From the IMG/VR virus record IMGVR_UViG_3300024298_000052, positions 1 to 20,328 of that record: a stretch of DNA of 20,328 nucleotides; one strand, given 5' to 3'. The position numbers and the translations under genes were made by a program. The DNA comes from a virus. A model generated the notes under the pieces. That model saw only the letters and a program-made list of their open reading frames with translations. It did not search any database and was not told the origin of the DNA. Shown piece after piece: positions 748 through 20,328 of the stretch. How positions within the stretch are numbered: position 1 is the first letter of the stretch; every line of letters begins with the position of its first letter.

Positions 748-894
748 ATGCTCCACGCTAAGGACTACATCGTTGCCGGGACCCCAGTTGCGGCGTCCAT
801 CACCCTCTCTCAGGTGAACCAAGTGGCGGCTCTAGTGGGCACCCTTCTCGGCATTGCATACCTACTCTGGAAGTGGCGGAGGGAGGCCAAGTGA
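748..894 (+). CDS. Small one-span membrane protein, holin-like (48 aa)
   Basis: This is a 48-aa protein with a single hydrophobic span at about residues 25-41 (QVAALVGTLLGIAYLLW) and a basic tail KWRREAK, the topology of small phage holins. The segment before the span (VAGTPVAASITLSQVNQ) matches, from memory, the G-x-x-V-x-x-x-x-S/T-L-x-x-W/V pattern of holin superfamily II-like proteins next to T7-like lysis genes. A longer in-frame reading from 673 is rejected: its extra 25 residues are basic and lie over the lipoprotein gene. The ATG at 748 follows a TAGGAT box by 7 nt and has only a weak AGGA as Shine-Dalgarno. The stop overlaps the next start (GTGA at 891-894). Together with 431 and 534 it makes a plausible lysis cassette lacking its endolysin. 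Confidence 0.65.
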   Translation: MLHAKDYIVAGTPVAASITLSQVNQVAALVGTLLGIAYLLWKWRREAK

Positions 895-5147: not shown

Positions 5148-6836
5148 ATGGCCGACCCACTCGAAGACCTTGGCATTATTGGTGTAAACAACCCCCGCAC
5201 CAACTACAACCCCACGGCGGGGGTAGTACAGCTTCCGGGTCAGGGCGGCGCCCCCGGTCCTTACACCGTGGACCCCGGTGCGGCCATTGGGTCCTACCTC
5301 TCCGCGTTTACGCCTGAGCTGATGGACCAGCTTTTCAAGCTGGAGCAGGGCTATGGCCCCAAGTTCACCGACCTCGACCTTGCTGCGCTTCGTCAGCGCA
5401 TTGAAGGGACGATGCCGCTGATTGGGGACCTCACCACCAAGGCTGGTGAAATCTCCCGTGGAGAGACCAATCTAGAGCGCAACTTCAACATCGACCAGCT
5501 TAACCAGCTTGGTTACCCGGCTCTGGACGCCTTCCTCAAGGCGAATCCCTACCTGAAGTCGGCTATGGATCGTTCGGACGCCCTTGGCGGGGTGTCCGCG
5601 AATGCGGGTTATGATGCGCTTTCGCGGAGGATTTTAGGCGGTGCCCCAACCCCCCAAAACATTACTCCTCAGACCATTTCGGCTGGTCAGCTTCAGGTCG
5701 GCGGGACGCTTACCCCGGAACGAGTGCAGGCGGAACGCATTGCTGCGGAGCGTGTTGCCGCTGGGCAGGTGCAAGCTGGTCAGGTTGGTCAGGGCGACTT
5801 GGGTCAGTCTCTGTATCAGCAAGCCCTTAATGCCCAGCAGCAGAGCCCGCTTTCGCAGGCCTTGCAGGCTCGCGGTCTGTCGATGGCGACTGCTCCGGGA
5901 CAGCTTTCTCCTGAGGAAATCCGAGCGGCTACGCAAGGCTCCCGCGAGGGCTATGCTGGTTCTGGCCGGTTGATGGACAATGCCTCCATTGCGGGTGAAG
6001 CCCTTGCCCGTGCGGGAGCTGCGCGTGAGCGGTCGATGCAGGACATCGCTGCCGCCCAGCAGATCAATCAGCAGCTTATCGGGGCTTCTCAGCAGGGTCA
6101 GGCCTTGGCTACGGACGTTCTGCGAACCGACATTCAACGTCAGCAGGCCAATGTTGGCAACCAACTTCAGGCTGGTCAGTTCAACGTGGACGCGATGCTT
6201 CGGGGCGACCTTGCCAACCAACAGGCCAACCTTCAGGCCAATCTGGCCAATCAGGATGCGTTTCTGCGTGCTGGTCTGGCCAATCAGCAGGCTGGGATGG
6301 ATGCCCAGAGGTTCAACATCACCAATCAGCAGGATGTTGGCCGGTTCAACATTGGGACAGGGCTCCAGACGAGCACGTACAATGCGGATGCGACGAATCG
6401 CGCCGCCGAAAGCAATCGGTCGTTTAACTACGCTGCTGAACAGGACTACCTCAAATACCTCGGCATCCTTGGTGACAAGACGGCTGCTCAGCGCGAGGCC
6501 GACCGTGCGTACAACCTCAATCAGGTTGGAACGTATGGCAACGTGACGAACGCCGCCCTCAATGCGGTGAATTGGAACCAGCCGCCTCCGGGTGTTAATA
6601 CCGGACTCAACTACTTCACGGCTGGCGGCAATGTTCCGAGTGCGAATCGGTTTGACCCGAATGCTGGCGTCAATCTGGCGTCCACCACCGCTGCCAATCT
6701 GAGCAACTACGGGGCCAACATCTACGGGGCCAACAAGAGCTTGGAAGCGGCTAATAAGACTGCTGCGGCTACCAAATCCGCTGGAAATGTTCAGGCTGGC
6801 GCTGCGATTGGCGGCGCGCTTATTGTCGCCCTATGA
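5148..6836 (+). CDS. Internal virion / ejection-like protein with regular repeats (562 aa)
   Basis: This protein is rich in Ala, Gln and Asn and sits just after the tail genes, where short-tailed phages encode internal (ejection) proteins such as T7 gp14. Two repeat systems are visible. Residues 172-218 have a hydrophobic residue every five positions (I172, I177, L182, then L188, V193, I198, V203, V208, V213, L218), like a pentapeptide-type beta solenoid with one 1-residue slip. Residues 355-387 have three 11-residue repeats starting LANQ (355, 366, 377), suggesting a long helix or right-handed coiled coil. The C-terminus VQAGAAIGGALIVAL is a Gly/Ala hydrophobic tail suited to membrane insertion. 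No enzymatic motif is seen. The stop overlaps the next start (ATGA at 6833-6836). The function is inferred from position and composition. Confidence 0.65.
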   Translation: MADPLEDLGIIGVNNPRTNYNPTAGVVQLPGQGGAPGPYTVDPGAAIGSYLSAFTPELMDQLFKLEQGYGPKFTDLDLAALRQRIEGTMPLIGDLTTKAGEISRGETNLERNFNIDQLNQLGYPALDAFLKANPYLKSAMDRSDALGGVSANAGYDALSRRILGGAPTPQNITPQTISAGQLQVGGTLTPERVQAERIAAERVAAGQVQAGQVGQGDLGQSLYQQALNAQQQSPLSQALQARGLSMATAPGQLSPEEIRAATQGSREGYAGSGRLMDNASIAGEALARAGAARERSMQDIAAAQQINQQLIGASQQGQALATDVLRTDIQRQQANVGNQLQAGQFNVDAMLRGDLANQQANLQANLANQDAFLRAGLANQQAGMDAQRFNITNQQDVGRFNIGTGLQTSTYNADATNRAAESNRSFNYAAEQDYLKYLGILGDKTAAQREADRAYNLNQVGTYGNVTNAALNAVNWNQPPPGVNTGLNYFTAGGNVPSANRFDPNAGVNLASTTAANLSNYGANIYGANKSLEAANKTAAATKSAGNVQAGAAIGGALIVAL

Positions 6837-7630
6837 CCTATGAGCAGAAGCTCGTCCTAGCCAAACTCACCATCAAGGCTGGCCTTGAGAACTCAAGGAA
6901 TCCGGCGGTGATGTGCAGCTTTGGCAAGGACAGTATGGTCGTCCTGCACTTGGTTAACACCTTCAAGCGCCTGAAGGTGATCTTCCACAGAGAGCCGTTC
7001 CAGCATCACAAGTACGACTACGCCAATCGGGTGATGAAGGCGTGGGATTTGCACGTAATCGACTACCCACCATCCAGCACGGCGGCAGCGGAAGTCGGCT
7101 CGGATATGGAGGTAGTCAATTACTACCAGATCGGAACCCGAACCGTTCATCTACCCACGGGCCTGAAGCACGAAGATAAGGGGCCGGACACCCTTTGTGC
7201 CCTGACTGAAATCTACGGAAAGCCCACCGGCACCTTCAACTACCCCTTCGACCTAGTGTTCCACGGTCATAAGTCGGTGGACAGCGATCCGATTATGGGT
7301 GATGTGCCTCTGTTCTCCGATGTGGCTATGAACATTGGAGCCCCGTCTGCCGCGTTCCCGATTCGGCACTTCACCCACGCGGACGTATGGCGGTATATTG
7401 AGGAGAACAACATCCCGATTCATCACGAACGCTATGAGAAGCGGGATGGGGAGTGGGTGGAGAAGGACGACAAGACAAACAACCCCGACTACATTGGCTG
7501 CTGCTATGCCTGTATGTCCCAGAACACGGGGAATAGCGTCCATTGCCCCAAGTGGGGCCTAACCGTCAGCAATGTCTCTAGCCAGCTTCGTTGGGCCCCT
7601 AAGATGGAAGCCAGCTATTTGAAGAGGTAG
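6833..7630 (+). CDS. PP-loop enzyme of the PAPS reductase (CysH/DndC-like) family (265 aa)
   Basis: A PP-loop S29-F-G-K-D-S34 near the N-terminus marks the adenine-nucleotide alpha-hydrolase fold. The downstream segment FPIRHFTHADVWRYIEENNIP matches the P-I-x-x-x-T-x-x-D-V-W-x-Y-I-x-x-x-N-I-P signature of PAPS reductase / sulfurtransferase-like proteins. The C-terminus has a Cys cluster GCCYACMSQ plus a further Cys (HCPKWG), possibly for metal or Fe-S binding. The ECGLH motif of assimilatory PAPS reductase is absent. It is therefore probably not a plain sulfate-assimilation enzyme; DndC-like nucleic-acid sulfur chemistry or nucleotide chemistry is possible but unproven. It is coupled (ATGA) to an internal virion protein and followed by another, an odd place for a metabolic gene. 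Its stop TAG lies inside the box before the next gene. Confidence 0.82.
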   Translation: MTYEQKLVLAKLTIKAGLENSRNPAVMCSFGKDSMVVLHLVNTFKRLKVIFHREPFQHHKYDYANRVMKAWDLHVIDYPPSSTAAAEVGSDMEVVNYYQIGTRTVHLPTGLKHEDKGPDTLCALTEIYGKPTGTFNYPFDLVFHGHKSVDSDPIMGDVPLFSDVAMNIGAPSAAFPIRHFTHADVWRYIEENNIPIHHERYEKRDGEWVEKDDKTNNPDYIGCCYACMSQNTGNSVHCPKWGLTVSNVSSQLRWAPKMEASYLKR

Positions 7631-16378: not shown

Positions 16379-17709
16379 GCGGGCTGGTGAGGGAGGAGCT
16401 TGGTGATGGGACGGTCGAACATCATTCCGCAACGGCCCGTGCCGTCGCTTCTACCCTTGGCTTGGATGGCGTCCACGTAGATGAAACGCAGATCGTTGTC
16501 CGTGAGCTGCTGCATCACCCCGTCAGGCCGGTGGTCGGGCGCATTCAGGAAGATGATGCGGTCGGCGTCCTGTTCCAGATTGCCACTCTCGCGGAGGTCG
16601 GACATCCGGGGCTCCCGGTTCTCACGTTCCACGCTGCGGCCTAGCTGGGCCAGCAGAACCACTGGCACCTGTAGCTCGATGGCTAGGTCCTTCATCGCCA
16701 TCGTGAAGCGACCAAGGGCCATGTCACGGGTTTCCCCGCGTTCCTGCTGGGCGTCGTAGCGCTGGAGGTAGTCCACGCAGATGGCCTTTGGCTTGCTCAC
16801 CTGAGCGAAGGCCTTGGCCCGGGTGACGATGTGGCTGAGCGTCCGGTCCTGATCGTAGATTTCGATGGGCAACGCCTTCACCTTGCCAAGCTCACGCTTG
16901 AAGGTTTCGATGTCGTCCATCGTGGCCCGCCCAGCGAGGATGTCGCGGAAGCTGATGCCCGTGGTGGTCTGGGCGAACAGCGGGGCCATCTGCTTGACAG
17001 GCATTTCACGGCTGAACAGCAGCACCTTCCCCTGCTTGCACCAATGCTGGGCAATCTGGCGGCAGCAGCTACTCTTGCCCATACCCGGACGGGCGGACAG
17101 GATGATGAGCTCACCGGGCTTGGCTAGGCCAAAGCGCCGGTTCCAGTCGGGCCACGGGAAGTCAATGCCCGTATCCTTGTCCGTGTACGTGCCGTCCTGA
17201 ATGCGCCCAATCAGGGCAATGGCTTCGTCTGAGGCGTCAGCCAAGGTCACCTGCTTGGTGCCAGCGTGGTGCTTGGTGAGAAGGTTGTTCACCTCCAGCA
17301 CGAAGGGCTCCACCCCGCCGCTATGGGCCAGCGTCTTCTCAGCCATCCGAGTGCAGGTGGAGTGCAGCTCCCGCATCACGTAGTGCTGACGCACCACGTC
17401 AATCCAATGGCTGAGCTGGGCCGTGGTGCAGACGAGCTGCGTCATCTCCACGAGGCCCGGGATGCCGCCCACTTCATCCAGCTTGCCCATCTTCTTCAGC
17501 TCCTCAGCCAAGGCATGAAGCTCAAGCGGATGGTTGTTCTTGTGCTGCCATTGGATGGCGCGCCACAGCTTGCGGTGCTGGGGCAGGTAGAAGCAGCCCT
17601 CGTCAATGCGCCCATCAATGGCCTTGGCCAAGGATGGCGGACCATCGAGCAGGATGCAGGAGAGGATGATGCGCTCGCCCTCCTCGCTATGCGGAAGGTC
17701 GGCGCTCAT
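16375..17709 (-). CDS. dnaB: Replicative DNA helicase, DnaB family (444 aa)
   Basis: This is a hexameric 5'-3' helicase that unwinds phage DNA at the fork. The N-terminal helical domain (residues 1-145, starting MSADLPHSEEGERIILSCIL) matches the DnaB N-terminal domain. The RecA-like domain carries Walker A A206-RPGMGKSS, the SREMP segment typical of DnaB (residues 233-237) and Walker B AICVDYLQ (309-316). It also carries the LAQLGRSVERE segment and SDLRESGNLEQDADRI (about 370-385), which is the conserved C-terminal DnaB signature. The length is normal for the family. ATG 17709 has a near-perfect Shine-Dalgarno (AAAGGAGGTG) and overlaps the exonuclease stop (TAATG). No primase domain is fused, so primase must be elsewhere or host-supplied. 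Confidence 0.96.
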   Translation of the reverse strand: MSADLPHSEEGERIILSCILLDGPPSLAKAIDGRIDEGCFYLPQHRKLWRAIQWQHKNNHPLELHALAEELKKMGKLDEVGGIPGLVEMTQLVCTTAQLSHWIDVVRQHYVMRELHSTCTRMAEKTLAHSGGVEPFVLEVNNLLTKHHAGTKQVTLADASDEAIALIGRIQDGTYTDKDTGIDFPWPDWNRRFGLAKPGELIILSARPGMGKSSCCRQIAQHWCKQGKVLLFSREMPVKQMAPLFAQTTTGISFRDILAGRATMDDIETFKRELGKVKALPIEIYDQDRTLSHIVTRAKAFAQVSKPKAICVDYLQRYDAQQERGETRDMALGRFTMAMKDLAIELQVPVVLLAQLGRSVERENREPRMSDLRESGNLEQDADRIIFLNAPDHRPDGVMQQLTDNDLRFIYVDAIQAKGRSDGTGRCGMMFDRPITKLLPHQPA

Positions 17710-18479
17710 TACACCACCTCCTTTCGGGGGTCGTAGCTACGACGCAGACGCCACAGGACGCAGCAGGCCTGAAACCATTGCCACGCAATCTCCAGCTCAG
17801 CCTCCGTGTAGTGGATGACATCGACGCGACCTGGCTCTGTCTTGCTGACGTACACGTTGATGCCCTCGCGCTCCCAAGGATTGAGCCACGGGAACGCAGC
17901 GTGGTGGTAGGCCGCAATCTGGGCCTTGTGCGACATCTTCAGCAGCACGGGCTCACCCGGGGTCGTCTTCGTTGTCTTGAAGTCGAGGATGCCGTTGCGG
18001 ACGCCGCGGAGGTAGCGCACGTCCGTGGTGCCCGCGTAGCCCATCTCCTTGCTGACGAGCACCACCTCGCGCTCGATCACCTCCAGCCCATCAAGGGCCA
18101 GCTTCTCCATCGCACCCTTGGTGGCGGCAGCCAAGACATCCATCCCATCCACCTGCTCGCCCGTCTCCATCGCCTTGTGGAAGGCGGTGCCAAACTGCTG
18201 GGCCTCCACCATCTCACGATCAGCCTCATCGCGGATGGCCTTCTTCCATTCCTCCGTAGTGGAGAAGGCGTCGGGCGTGAACTTCAGGCAGGCGTCCAGC
18301 AGACGCGACTGCTTGTAGCGCTCCAGCTCAGGGCTGTAGGCTTCGTTCAGGATGGAGGAAACGGAGGGCAGCAAGCCCTCCAGCCGCGCATCGCGGAGGG
18401 TGGTAGCCCTCTCGGTGCCCTTCTTCGTAAGCCGCGTGTGGCTGCTCTTACCGTCGCGTGTGTACCAATGTTCGCTCAT
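17709..18479 (-). CDS. PD-(D/E)XK exonuclease, RecB/Cas4-like (256 aa)
   Basis: The nuclease motifs appear in order: H101 in FGTAFH, E137, D153 in GTTDVRYLRG, D166-F-K168 in GILDFKTTK, and Q187-x-x-x-Y191 in KAQIAAYHHA. This is the arrangement of RecB/AddB/Cas4-like and phage exonucleases of the PD-(D/E)XK superfamily; it would bind divalent metal and cut DNA. The Fe-S cysteine set of Cas4 is not visible. With DnaB directly downstream it probably serves recombination or DNA processing. ATG 18479 is chosen over TTG 18524 because the protein beginning MSEHWYTRDG has a natural start. Neither candidate has a Shine-Dalgarno, and this is the only - strand gene separated from its upstream neighbour by a real gap (52 bp). 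Confidence 0.88.
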   Translation of the reverse strand: MSEHWYTRDGKSSHTRLTKKGTERATTLRDARLEGLLPSVSSILNEAYSPELERYKQSRLLDACLKFTPDAFSTTEEWKKAIRDEADREMVEAQQFGTAFHKAMETGEQVDGMDVLAAATKGAMEKLALDGLEVIEREVVLVSKEMGYAGTTDVRYLRGVRNGILDFKTTKTTPGEPVLLKMSHKAQIAAYHHAAFPWLNPWEREGINVYVSKTEPGRVDVIHYTEAELEIAWQWFQACCVLWRLRRSYDPRKEVV

Positions 18480-18531: not shown

Positions 18532-18888
18532 CTATTTCTTTTGACTCATCAGGATTTCCGCCGCCTTGGAATAGTAGGTTGCTTCGTTGCGCGTGGTCTT
18601 GGGGCTGAATGGGCCGTGTCGCCAGATGTTTGCCCGAGTCCTAGGCGTGTCCCTCAGCTTGCGCTTCTGCACCCAATGCTGGGTGTAAAGCTTGAACAGG
18701 CGATAGGACCCGTCCATCGTGCCCCGCTCACGCAGGGAGACATCGTAGCCTGCACGCTTCAGGTCCTCCACTACGACAGGCTTGATCTGGGCAGGCCCGT
18801 AGGCGTCCCCGTTGCGAGCCTTGAGGTTGCCGCCACTCTCAATCTGCACGATGGCTTGGAACAGGGCGGCAAGGGCTAGCTCGCTCAC
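18532..18888 (-). CDS. SLT/lysozyme-like muramidase domain protein (118 aa)
   Basis: The N-terminus AIVQIESGGNLKARNGDAYG followed by PAQI is the signature of transglycosylase SLT / lysozyme-like folds: the catalytic Glu is E17 in I-E-S-G-G-N, and G-x-x-Q-I follows. The C-terminal part, with ARIW-like ANIWRHGP, AxYW-like EATYYSKA and a final helix, matches the compact stand-alone family (about 110-150 aa) known from some phages and planctomycete/verrucomicrobial genomes. It would cleave peptidoglycan glycan strands. There is no signal peptide or transmembrane span, so export would need the holin if it is the endolysin. It sits in the replication module rather than beside the lysis-like genes. 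GTG 18888 has GGAGGTGA upstream and overlaps the previous stop (GTGA). Confidence 0.78.
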   Translation of the reverse strand: MSELALAALFQAIVQIESGGNLKARNGDAYGPAQIKPVVVEDLKRAGYDVSLRERGTMDGSYRLFKLYTQHWVQKRKLRDTPRTRANIWRHGPFSPKTTRNEATYYSKAAEILMSQKK

Positions 18889-19166
18889 GGCTTCACCTCC
18901 ACGACTCGTGCCGCGTTCTTCGCCGCATCCGTATTGGGCAGGTGTATCTGCGTGAGAGCAGCCAGTTCAGACAGCCGCTCAACAAATAGGTCCAAATCGC
19001 AGATGTGCATCGTGGTGATGTCATCAGCCGCCGCTTCGTCAATTGGACGATTCATTGAGCGAGTGATCTCAAAGCACCCGTCCCACTTTTGGTACACCTT
19101 CCAATAGCCTTTGGGGCTTTCGGCGCAGAAGTGGGTTTCGCTCTTTTCGGTGATCTTCCAGCTCAC
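18885..19166 (-). CDS. Hypothetical protein (93 aa)
   Basis: I do not recognise a family. The N-terminal half has alternating aromatic and charged residues typical of a small beta sheet (SWKITEKSETHFCAESPKGY then WKVYQKWDGCFEI); the C-terminal half is helical and acidic, then ends AARVVEVKP. GTG 19166 is preferred over an in-frame upstream start at 19199 because GGGAGG lies 7 nt before it and it overlaps the thyX stop as GTGA. The final codons GTG-GAG-GTG-AAG-CCG-TGA embed the ribosome site of the next gene, part of the junction pattern shared by four genes here. Confidence 0.7.
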   Translation of the reverse strand: MSWKITEKSETHFCAESPKGYWKVYQKWDGCFEITRSMNRPIDEAAADDITTMHICDLDLFVERLSELAALTQIHLPNTDAAKNAARVVEVKP

Positions 19167-19825
19167 GGCTTGGCCTCCCTCAGTTGCAGCGCATTCCACA
19201 CGTTGGGGAATTGCTTGGCGAACACTTCACGAATGAGGCAGGCCAGCTCACGATGCTCCTTCTGCGTGTGCTCCGCGCAGCGTTGGTCGAAGTAGTGAAT
19301 CCAGCTTCTGACATTTCCGGTCACGTACATCCGGGTGCGGGTGCAGAGAGGCAACACCATCCGGGCGGTCTCCTTGCTCACACCAGCCTCGATAAGGCGT
19401 TTGTAGACGCCGAAGATTGTGCTCACCGCCTCCTGCGCCTCCAAGCCCAGATCAGGGTCCTCGTGGATGTCTCCCGATGCCTGCCGGTTCTTCAGGTCTT
19501 GCCTGCGTAGCTCGATTGGCTCGAAATCGCCGCTGGTCGAATATCGTTGGCTATGCTCCTGAAATGTGAAGCTCCTATGCCTGAGAAGCTGGGCAGCAAT
19601 AGCCCGGCTGGTCTCTACCTCCACAGTCATCGAGGCAGTCTCAAAGACCGACCAATGCCCGTGCCTGATGCAATAGGCAAGGAGGCGCGGAGCCGTCTCC
19701 GTGTTAAGCTGGTTGCTGGGATTGCTGACCCGAGCGCAGTATGCGATCAGATCGTCTGCGGTGAGGATGCCCTGCTCTATGAGGTCGGCAGAGGGCTGAG
19801 TGATGCTGACAAGTTTAGCGTTCAC
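19163..19825 (-). CDS. thyX: FAD-dependent thymidylate synthase ThyX (220 aa)
   Basis: ThyX makes dTMP from dUMP using methylene-tetrahydrofolate, FAD and NADPH, supplying thymidine for phage DNA synthesis in the cytoplasm. The defining ThyX motif R-H-R-x7-S is present as R82-H83-R84 to S92 (LRHRSFTFQEHSQRYS). The N-terminal ARVSNPSNQLNTE and GHWSVFETASMTVEV segments (the family's H-x-S/P-x-F/L-E-x region), the central R-T-R-M-Y region and the C-terminal RSWIHYFDQRCAEHTQKE also match. Length is normal. The start is GTG 19825, with AAAGGAG 5 nt upstream and a GTGA overlap with the preceding gene. It is the third gene in a coupled string. Confidence 0.95.
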   Translation of the reverse strand: MNAKLVSITQPSADLIEQGILTADDLIAYCARVSNPSNQLNTETAPRLLAYCIRHGHWSVFETASMTVEVETSRAIAAQLLRHRSFTFQEHSQRYSTSGDFEPIELRRQDLKNRQASGDIHEDPDLGLEAQEAVSTIFGVYKRLIEAGVSKETARMVLPLCTRTRMYVTGNVRSWIHYFDQRCAEHTQKEHRELACLIREVFAKQFPNVWNALQLREAKP

Positions 19826-19842
19826 GGCTGCTCCTTTCGTGC
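19822..19842 (-). repeat. 21-bp direct repeat at gene junction, copy 1
   Basis: GCACGAAAGGAGCAGCCGTGA on the - strand is identical to 20202-20222. It encodes the last residues ARKEQP of the upstream gene, the ribosome site GGAG, the stop TGA and most of the overlapping GTG start of thyX. Confidence 0.9.
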
Positions 19843-20205
19843 GGCGTCAATGGCGGCGCGCTCCTTTTTCTGGGGGTCGTTTTCGGGCCAGTAGCCAACA
19901 ACCATCCGCCTAGATTCCGCGACAATTCGGAACCGGTCCGCATCGGCAAGACGGCGGAGAGCGATTGCGTGAACGGTAATAGCACCGCTGTCGGTGACCA
20001 TCGTGCCAGCGACTTGCCCGTTGTAATCGCGGAGCGCGGTGCCCGTGTGGCAATCCCGACGAGCCATATCCTCCAGCGCCTCAAGCAGCGCGGCGTTTTC
20101 GCGCTCCAGCTCGCGGGCAAAATCAGCCTGCACGAACTCCTCTCCTTCGTCTGGATTAAAACCAAAGAATTGTGCTTTCGAGTCGGTTTTAGGTGTGTCG
20201 CTCAC
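19822..20205 (-). CDS. Small coiled-coil phage protein (127 aa)
   Basis: The protein begins MSDTPKTDSKAQFFGF, then has a helical segment DFARELERENAALLEALEDM likely to form a coiled coil. From memory the S-D/E-T-P-x-T-D start followed by F-A-R-E/D-L-E-R-E is a recurrent small phage protein of unknown function. The C-terminal region (RLADADRFRIVAESRRMVVGYWPENDP) leads to AAIDAARKEQP. The last residues ARKEQP are the same as those of the preceding partial gene, because both ends lie in an exact 21-bp repeat. GTG 20205 has AAAGGAG and overlaps the previous stop (GTGA). Confidence 0.72.
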   Translation of the reverse strand: MSDTPKTDSKAQFFGFNPDEGEEFVQADFARELERENAALLEALEDMARRDCHTGTALRDYNGQVAGTMVTDSGAITVHAIALRRLADADRFRIVAESRRMVVGYWPENDPQKKERAAIDAARKEQP

Positions 20206-20222
20206 GGCTGCTCCTTTCGTGC
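20202..20222 (-). repeat. 21-bp direct repeat at gene junction, copy 2
   Basis: This is identical to 19822-19842 on the - strand. It joins the partial gene to the 127-aa gene with the same A-R-K-E-Q-P-stop / GTG overlap. Partial versions of the same design occur at 18885-18905 and 19163-19180. Confidence 0.9.
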
Positions 20223-20328
20223 CTCAACGGCGGCTTTTAGGTTCTCGAACTTCTGAGGAGCCTCCGGCCAATTGGTGGACTCGCCCTCGATCTCGTAGTC
20301 CACATAAGCCTTGGCGGCTTCCACGATG
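20202..20328 (-). CDS. Partial hypothetical protein, C-terminal 41 residues
   Basis: The gene enters from the right edge and stops at TGA 20202-20204. The visible part is IVEAAKAYVDYEIEGE, STNWPEAPQKFENL and KAAVEARKEQP. It is helical and charged with no recognised domain; the start is outside the window. It ends with the same RKEQP-stop design as the next gene, and its last codons carry the ribosome site for it. Confidence 0.7.
   Translation of the reverse strand, partial: IVEAAKAYVDYEIEGESTNWPEAPQKFENLKAAVEARKEQP

Follow-up and report, generated by a model that had tools for sequence, protein, structure and literature searches.

A repeated coding linker at small-gene junctions of uncultured phages, with a probable part in translational coupling and gene exchange

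One joining element of about 39 bp closes many of the small genes of a group of uncultured phages. It recurs in one fixed frame, its nucleotides are the same across unrelated genes, and similarity breaks and gene insertions fall at such joints. Probably the element is a translational-coupling linker that doubles as a homology patch for the swapping of gene pieces, a reading in which both the coupling and the exchange are drawn from sequence comparison.

The linker in the window

The window is the whole of one IMG/VR record, a 20.3-kb fragment of 20,328 nucleotides. Its minus strand encodes ThyX, a PD-(D/E)XK exonuclease and a DnaB-type helicase, and its plus strand carries virion genes; a PAPS-reductase-type gene lies among the late virion genes (6833–7630, plus strand). 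With 12 kb of the window as query, no near-identical DNA was found in the phage collection, and the helicase has less than 60% identity to any phage of the collection (about 29% to the best among the matches listed). For the 127-aa protein encoded upstream of thyX, no Pfam or PHROG family was found, and tblastn against phages gave no match.

Four minus-strand genes end at 20202 (EQP), 19822 (EQP), 19163 (EAKP) and 18885 (EVKP), each with a 4-base GTGA overlap with the next gene, which continues with GC or AC. A 21-mer, GCACGAAAGGAGCAGCCGTGA, is exact at the first two (Table 1) and was not found in 100 shuffles of the window with up to 3 mismatches allowed. The gene ends, the overlaps, the 21-bp identity and a 12-mer shared with a plus-strand junction had all been described in an earlier, sequence-only reading and are confirmed in the sequence. 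The same reading took the four junctions for one cassette, which holds for the two with the exact long linker, the EAKP and EVKP junctions being only loosely related to it.

In the linker, GGAG lies 5 bases ahead of the GTG, so that the Shine-Dalgarno (SD) sequence is inside the upstream gene, and stop and start overlap (GTGA). The ribosome site that had been placed within a fixed C-terminal peptide is indeed there, as AAAGGAG in the coding tail. Folding at all four junctions is weaker than the mean of their shuffles, which leaves the SD accessible. RNA structure at the linker was considered and ruled out, folding being no better than in shuffles.

The junctions at 19163 and 18885 have in common only a looser GAG...AGCCGTGAGC, not the 21-mer, and may be just ordinary SD plus overlap. 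The 12-mer AGGGAGGCCAAG occurs at 880–891 (plus strand), followed by the TGA of GTGA, and a second time at 19169–19180; with up to one mismatch, 3 occurrences were found in the window against 0.19 expected. A search for the generic gene-end pattern (GAGN4AGCCGTGA, up to 2 mismatches) found 10 in the window against 6.8 expected, which is not clearly above chance, and the four junctions are therefore not treated as one cassette.

Table 1. Features of the window bearing on the linker and its relatives
Feature	Position	Strand	Comment
3' part of upstream small gene, truncated by contig end	20202..20327	-	114 open-frame residues in L008/L013
Linker copy 1, AAVEARKEQP-stop / GTG	20202..20237	-	Exact 21-mer core 20202-20222, AAAGGAG ribosome site
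GTGA overlap of linker copy 1	20202-20205	-	
127-aa mosaic protein gene	19822..20205	-	Head MSDTPKTD..FARE, internal joint, private middle, AAIDAARKEQP tail
Internal joint CTGGAGCGCGAAAACGCCGCGCTGCTT (LERENAALL) in 127-aa gene	20083..20109	-	Joins heads to unrelated tails in relatives
Linker copy 2, full 39-nt form, RAAIDAARKEQP-stop / GTG	19822..19860	-	Exact 21-mer core 19822-19842; GTG starts thyX
thyX (flavin-dependent thymidylate synthase)	19163..19825	-	GTG start provided by linker copy 2
thyX end, AGGGAGGCCAAGCCGTGA (REAKP-stop)	19163..19180	-	GAG ... AGCCGTGAGC, looser linker relative; one edge of gene insertion
93-aa gene	18885..19166	-	Insertion between thyX and VSELAL gene relative to L042, L043
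GAGGTGAAGCCGTGA (EVKP-stop) ahead of VSELAL gene	18885..18899	-	Looser linker relative; other edge of insertion
PD-(D/E)XK exonuclease (PHROG 298)	17709..18479	-	Possible recombination partner
AGGGAGGCCAAGTGA (REAK-stop), next GTG at 892	880..894	+	12-mer in common with thyX end; not the long linker

Recurrence across unrelated genes

An exact search of IMG/VR finds the 21-mer in 33 stretches, which come from 31 metagenome datasets; chance would give far less than one occurrence (an estimate that sets about 1e11 positions against 4^21 words). All copies are at gene junctions and in one frame, the upstream gene ending in (..RAAIDA)ARKEQP-stop and the next starting at the overlapping GTG. Upstream proteins with this end fall into 9 families and downstream genes into 13, in 17 combinations, as a portable linker, proposed beforehand, would have it; families were counted after removal of the last 14 residues, with a simple ORF caller and single-linkage clustering. 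The relatives, cited by L numbers, are metagenome contigs throughout, and kinship among contigs makes the counts non-independent. Protein families without the last 14 residues were used because upstream DNA clusters merged into only 3 groups, probably because an internal joint (see below) connects them. Remote homology within the coiled-coil parts may connect some of the upstream families.

Other exactly shared 21-base gene ends join at most 2 families, and 6 families end in the 21-mer even among loci picked solely for ThyX or the nuclease. For example, the tail KQLERENAAL.. stands before several different downstream genes, and the downstream gene VRNT.. follows three different tails. Genes downstream of the linker, thyX and the VSELAL gene included, are unrelated. 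Across relatives, many different genes precede thyX, and its C-terminus comes in several versions.

A search of 84,980 bacterial and archaeal genomes found no copy of the 21-mer and pointed to no host. In known phages, the 40-nt linker has one weak match (87.5% over 32 bp, E 0.01); it falls where two genes meet in Gordonia phage Cafasso and is probably a case of convergence.

The DNA itself is shared, since the 2,048 synonymous codings of AARKEQP-stop (with CGN arginine) add only 1 contig beyond the exact-sequence set. Between junctions that are unrelated on both sides, identity changes in a step at -39 and again at about +1 to +5. It is about 0.25 outside the linker and 0.5 to 1.0 from -39 through -22, a part free of search constraint; the perfect identity of the 21-mer is partly imposed by the exact search. 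The 21 bp noticed at two junctions of the window thus belong to a longer element, of about 39 bp. Distant versions retain AAIDAARKE and the ribosome site with varying last residues (EKP, EAQP, EKE, EIQS), all at gene ends.

Pentapeptide-repeat proteins of varied length (201–262 aa) close with the linker in L009, L026 and L033. HL(T/N)EGGTPT-stop, with GGAGG and ATGA/GTGA, is a second gene end that recurs, standing before different genes (L003, L006, L011, L018, L155). HLTEGGTPT-stop was rejected as a portable linker: the genes that it closes are homologous at the C-terminus (DDAIMRQ), so that it looks like a family tail, not a proven portable joint. A third, WHQPKE(E)QP-stop / GTGA, stands before thyX and other genes in L035, L036, L038, L041, L046 and L054.

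Breakpoints, internal joints and competing explanations

Breakpoints were defined as ends of similarity segments of at least 88% identity and at least 80 bp, over all loci. Linkers contain 74 of them against 9.2 expected, and internal joints (LERENAALR) 50 against 8.8; 12.5% lie within 5 bp of a gene stop, where 2.4% would be expected. A breakpoint is present at 25 of 27 linker junctions vs. 24 of 43 other strong-SD junctions (p 0.001), and at 11 of 41 weak-SD junctions. Among shared segments of 80–1500 bp, 17 of 98 have both ends at a linker, an internal joint or a gene stop (0.6 expected).

Gene gain and loss in relatives track junctions as well. The 93-aa gene (18885–19166) is missing from L042 and L043, where thyX directly adjoins the next gene; compared with these contigs the flanks of the insertion are 93–96% (thyX end) and 92% (next gene) identical, and its borders lie exactly at GTGAGC junctions. 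Borders of gain, loss and swaps thus coincide with the linker or similar junctions, and the contrary outcome named in the sequence-only reading, boundaries falling elsewhere, is unseen.

Many linker-closed proteins are mosaics, in which heads (MSDTPRTDAKAQFFGFNPDEGEEFVQADFARE, MSDRETAPYRRIAD or VSDQELHLRTIIER) and unrelated tails meet at LERENAALR. The DNA of this internal joint is also conserved, as about YTGGAGCGYGARAACGCCGCGCTGCGG, and the joint is in frame in 50 stretches. L007 and L023 share about 265 identical bp, from the internal joint to the linker GTGAG, with unrelated DNA on either side. The linker had been suggested as homology for swapping small genes; the borders at joints agree with this, but because a second joint lies inside genes, what is exchanged is often not a whole gene but its 3' part together with the linker. 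The N-terminal start M/V-SDTPRTDA heads many unrelated small proteins (L007, L009, L011, L158, L161, L175, L180, L186) and is possibly a third joint, at gene starts.

The linker would act both as RNA and as DNA. In RNA, it encodes the 12 C-terminal residues of the protein upstream (RAAIDAARKEQP) and carries an AAAGGAG site 5 bases before the overlapping GTG, and a gene placed after it would be translated right behind the upstream gene. In DNA, the same patch at unrelated junctions would offer homology for annealing-type recombination, and crossovers there could exchange downstream genes, or 3' parts of genes from LERENAALR onward, leaving reading frame and ribosome site intact. Exchange may proceed by homologous annealing at the patch, probably via the phages' own Erf/exonuclease system. 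The Erf annealing protein is found in about 20 relatives (PF04404, E 6e-27; PHROG Erf-like), and in L040 its gene is close to that of the PD-(D/E)XK exonuclease; in the window's 20 kb the exonuclease is present and no Erf was identified. A protein of about 210 aa (PHROG 862), with an acidic DVPF tail as in single-strand binding proteins, is encoded at L112:7009-7662 and L054:8054-8677, and may be a partner in recombination in the lineage that showed no Erf.

More tentatively, LERENAALR inside genes and RAAIDAARKEQP/GTGA at their ends might form a combinatorial two-joint assembly, maintained by the phages at the DNA level because annealing recombinases can then build in-frame, translated chimeric small proteins. 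If true, the phages would have a permanent supply of new small genes.

An unlikely substitute for the linker explanation is an ordinary strong SD with a 4-base overlap: gene ends would come to resemble each other through selection for tight initiation of translation, and breaks would remain at gene ends because, after illegitimate recombination, only intact genes were kept by selection. Breakpoints are enriched at non-linker stops and strong-SD junctions too, and [KQ]P endings occur in 9 of 28 families at GTGA junctions vs. 4 of 231 other gene ends, an excess that SD plus spacer would give. Initiation, however, needs neither a single synonymous coding out of the 2,048 nor another 15–18 identical bases ahead of the SD (ATCGACGCCGCACGA), which are conserved across unrelated genes, and linker junctions have more breakpoints than other strong-SD junctions. 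Breakpoints gather at non-linker NTGA junctions too, so that selection for intact junctions has a share, and the gradient across junction classes is best fitted by a mixed model in which homology acts at the long linkers and such selection at the other junctions.

Less probable again is protein-level selection on AAIDAARKEQP as a functional C-terminal tag or interaction motif. Such a motif would fit the retention of the core AAIDAARKE in distant versions with altered endings, but not the near absence of synonymous variants while the last residues vary (EQP, EKP, EAQP, EKE, EIQS), nor an identity that runs on through stop and start in carrier genes that are unrelated. Descent of one duplicated gene family, with a conserved tail, a diverged remainder and no exchange at joints, is very improbable: 100% identity between joints with unrelated DNA outside, as in L007 and L023, cannot be yielded by descent with divergence, and whereas coiled-coil segments are common to several upstream proteins and L011 has tandem similar cassettes, the tails close pentapeptide-repeat proteins as well as coiled coils and the downstream genes (thyX and VSELAL among them) are unrelated. 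Assembly chimeras at short repeats can be dismissed almost entirely, for although the data are all metagenome assemblies and repeats of 21–39 bp can confuse short k-mers, separately assembled datasets repeat the same junctions (AEQQDRIAFD/VSDP in three, KQLERENAAL/VRNT in at least three), two copies are resolved within single contigs (L006, L011, L013, L032, L033), and the recurring linker itself would persist.

Comparison with known systems

A literature search of mostly open-access papers returned no prior description of the linker, and its sequence matches none of the SAS, boundary sequences and PeSL. It explains identical tails on unrelated small phage proteins, and such tails are not to be read as domains.

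SAS/ESAS of cluster K mycobacteriophages are short asymmetric AGGAG repeats directly before the start codons of various gene families. The SAS has 13 bp (GGGATAGGAGCCC) and often goes with larger intergenic regions, and half of the SAS have inverted repeats; it is conserved beyond pairing with 16S rRNA, and its authors also raise recombination (PMC3203893). Like SAS, the linker is an SD-containing repeat before the starts of different families (13 downstream families). Its sequence, CGAAAGGAGCAGCCGTG, has AGGAG in common with SAS but little else, and lies outside the 2 deviations allowed from GGGATAGGAGCCC. Unlike SAS, for which the upstream coding content is not fixed, the linker of about 39 bp is wholly coding, with a fixed C-terminus and a stop/start overlap, and is paired with a second joint inside genes.

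Boundary sequences are attributed to lambdoid phages. They are short conserved sequences between modules and proposed homologous crossover sites for whole-gene swaps (cited in PMC3029335). Similarly, the linker flanks non-homologous modules (9 upstream and 13 downstream families) with an identity step at both edges, and breakpoints (74 vs. 9.2) and gene gain/loss fall at it. It differs in being one identical coding patch at many unrelated junctions, accompanied by an intragenic joint, and recombination at it is deduced from the sequences. Whether the precise exchange of single small genes results from random joining plus selection or from homology at boundary sequences has long been argued; the linker offers a natural set in which an identical boundary sequence stands at many unrelated junctions and breakpoints are countable, which makes the question testable in crosses.

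The PeSL (promoter early stem-loop) of T4-type phages is a repeated intergenic cassette that reportedly mediates gene shuffling between related T4-like phages (Arbiol 2010, Comeau 2014; cited in PMC4503421). The linker resembles PeSL as a repeated cassette between genes that is probably tied to gene shuffling, and departs from its promoter and stem-loop terminator in being coding, in carrying a translation signal and in folding no better than shuffled sequence.

Rad52-like phage recombinases (Red-beta, Erf, RecT) build mosaics from homology that is short or diverged (PMC3945230). Many of the relatives encode one of these annealing proteins, Erf, and a role of this machinery at the linker is proposed. 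In contrast to relaxed recombination, which uses whatever homology phages share, the linker is a dedicated-looking repeated patch.
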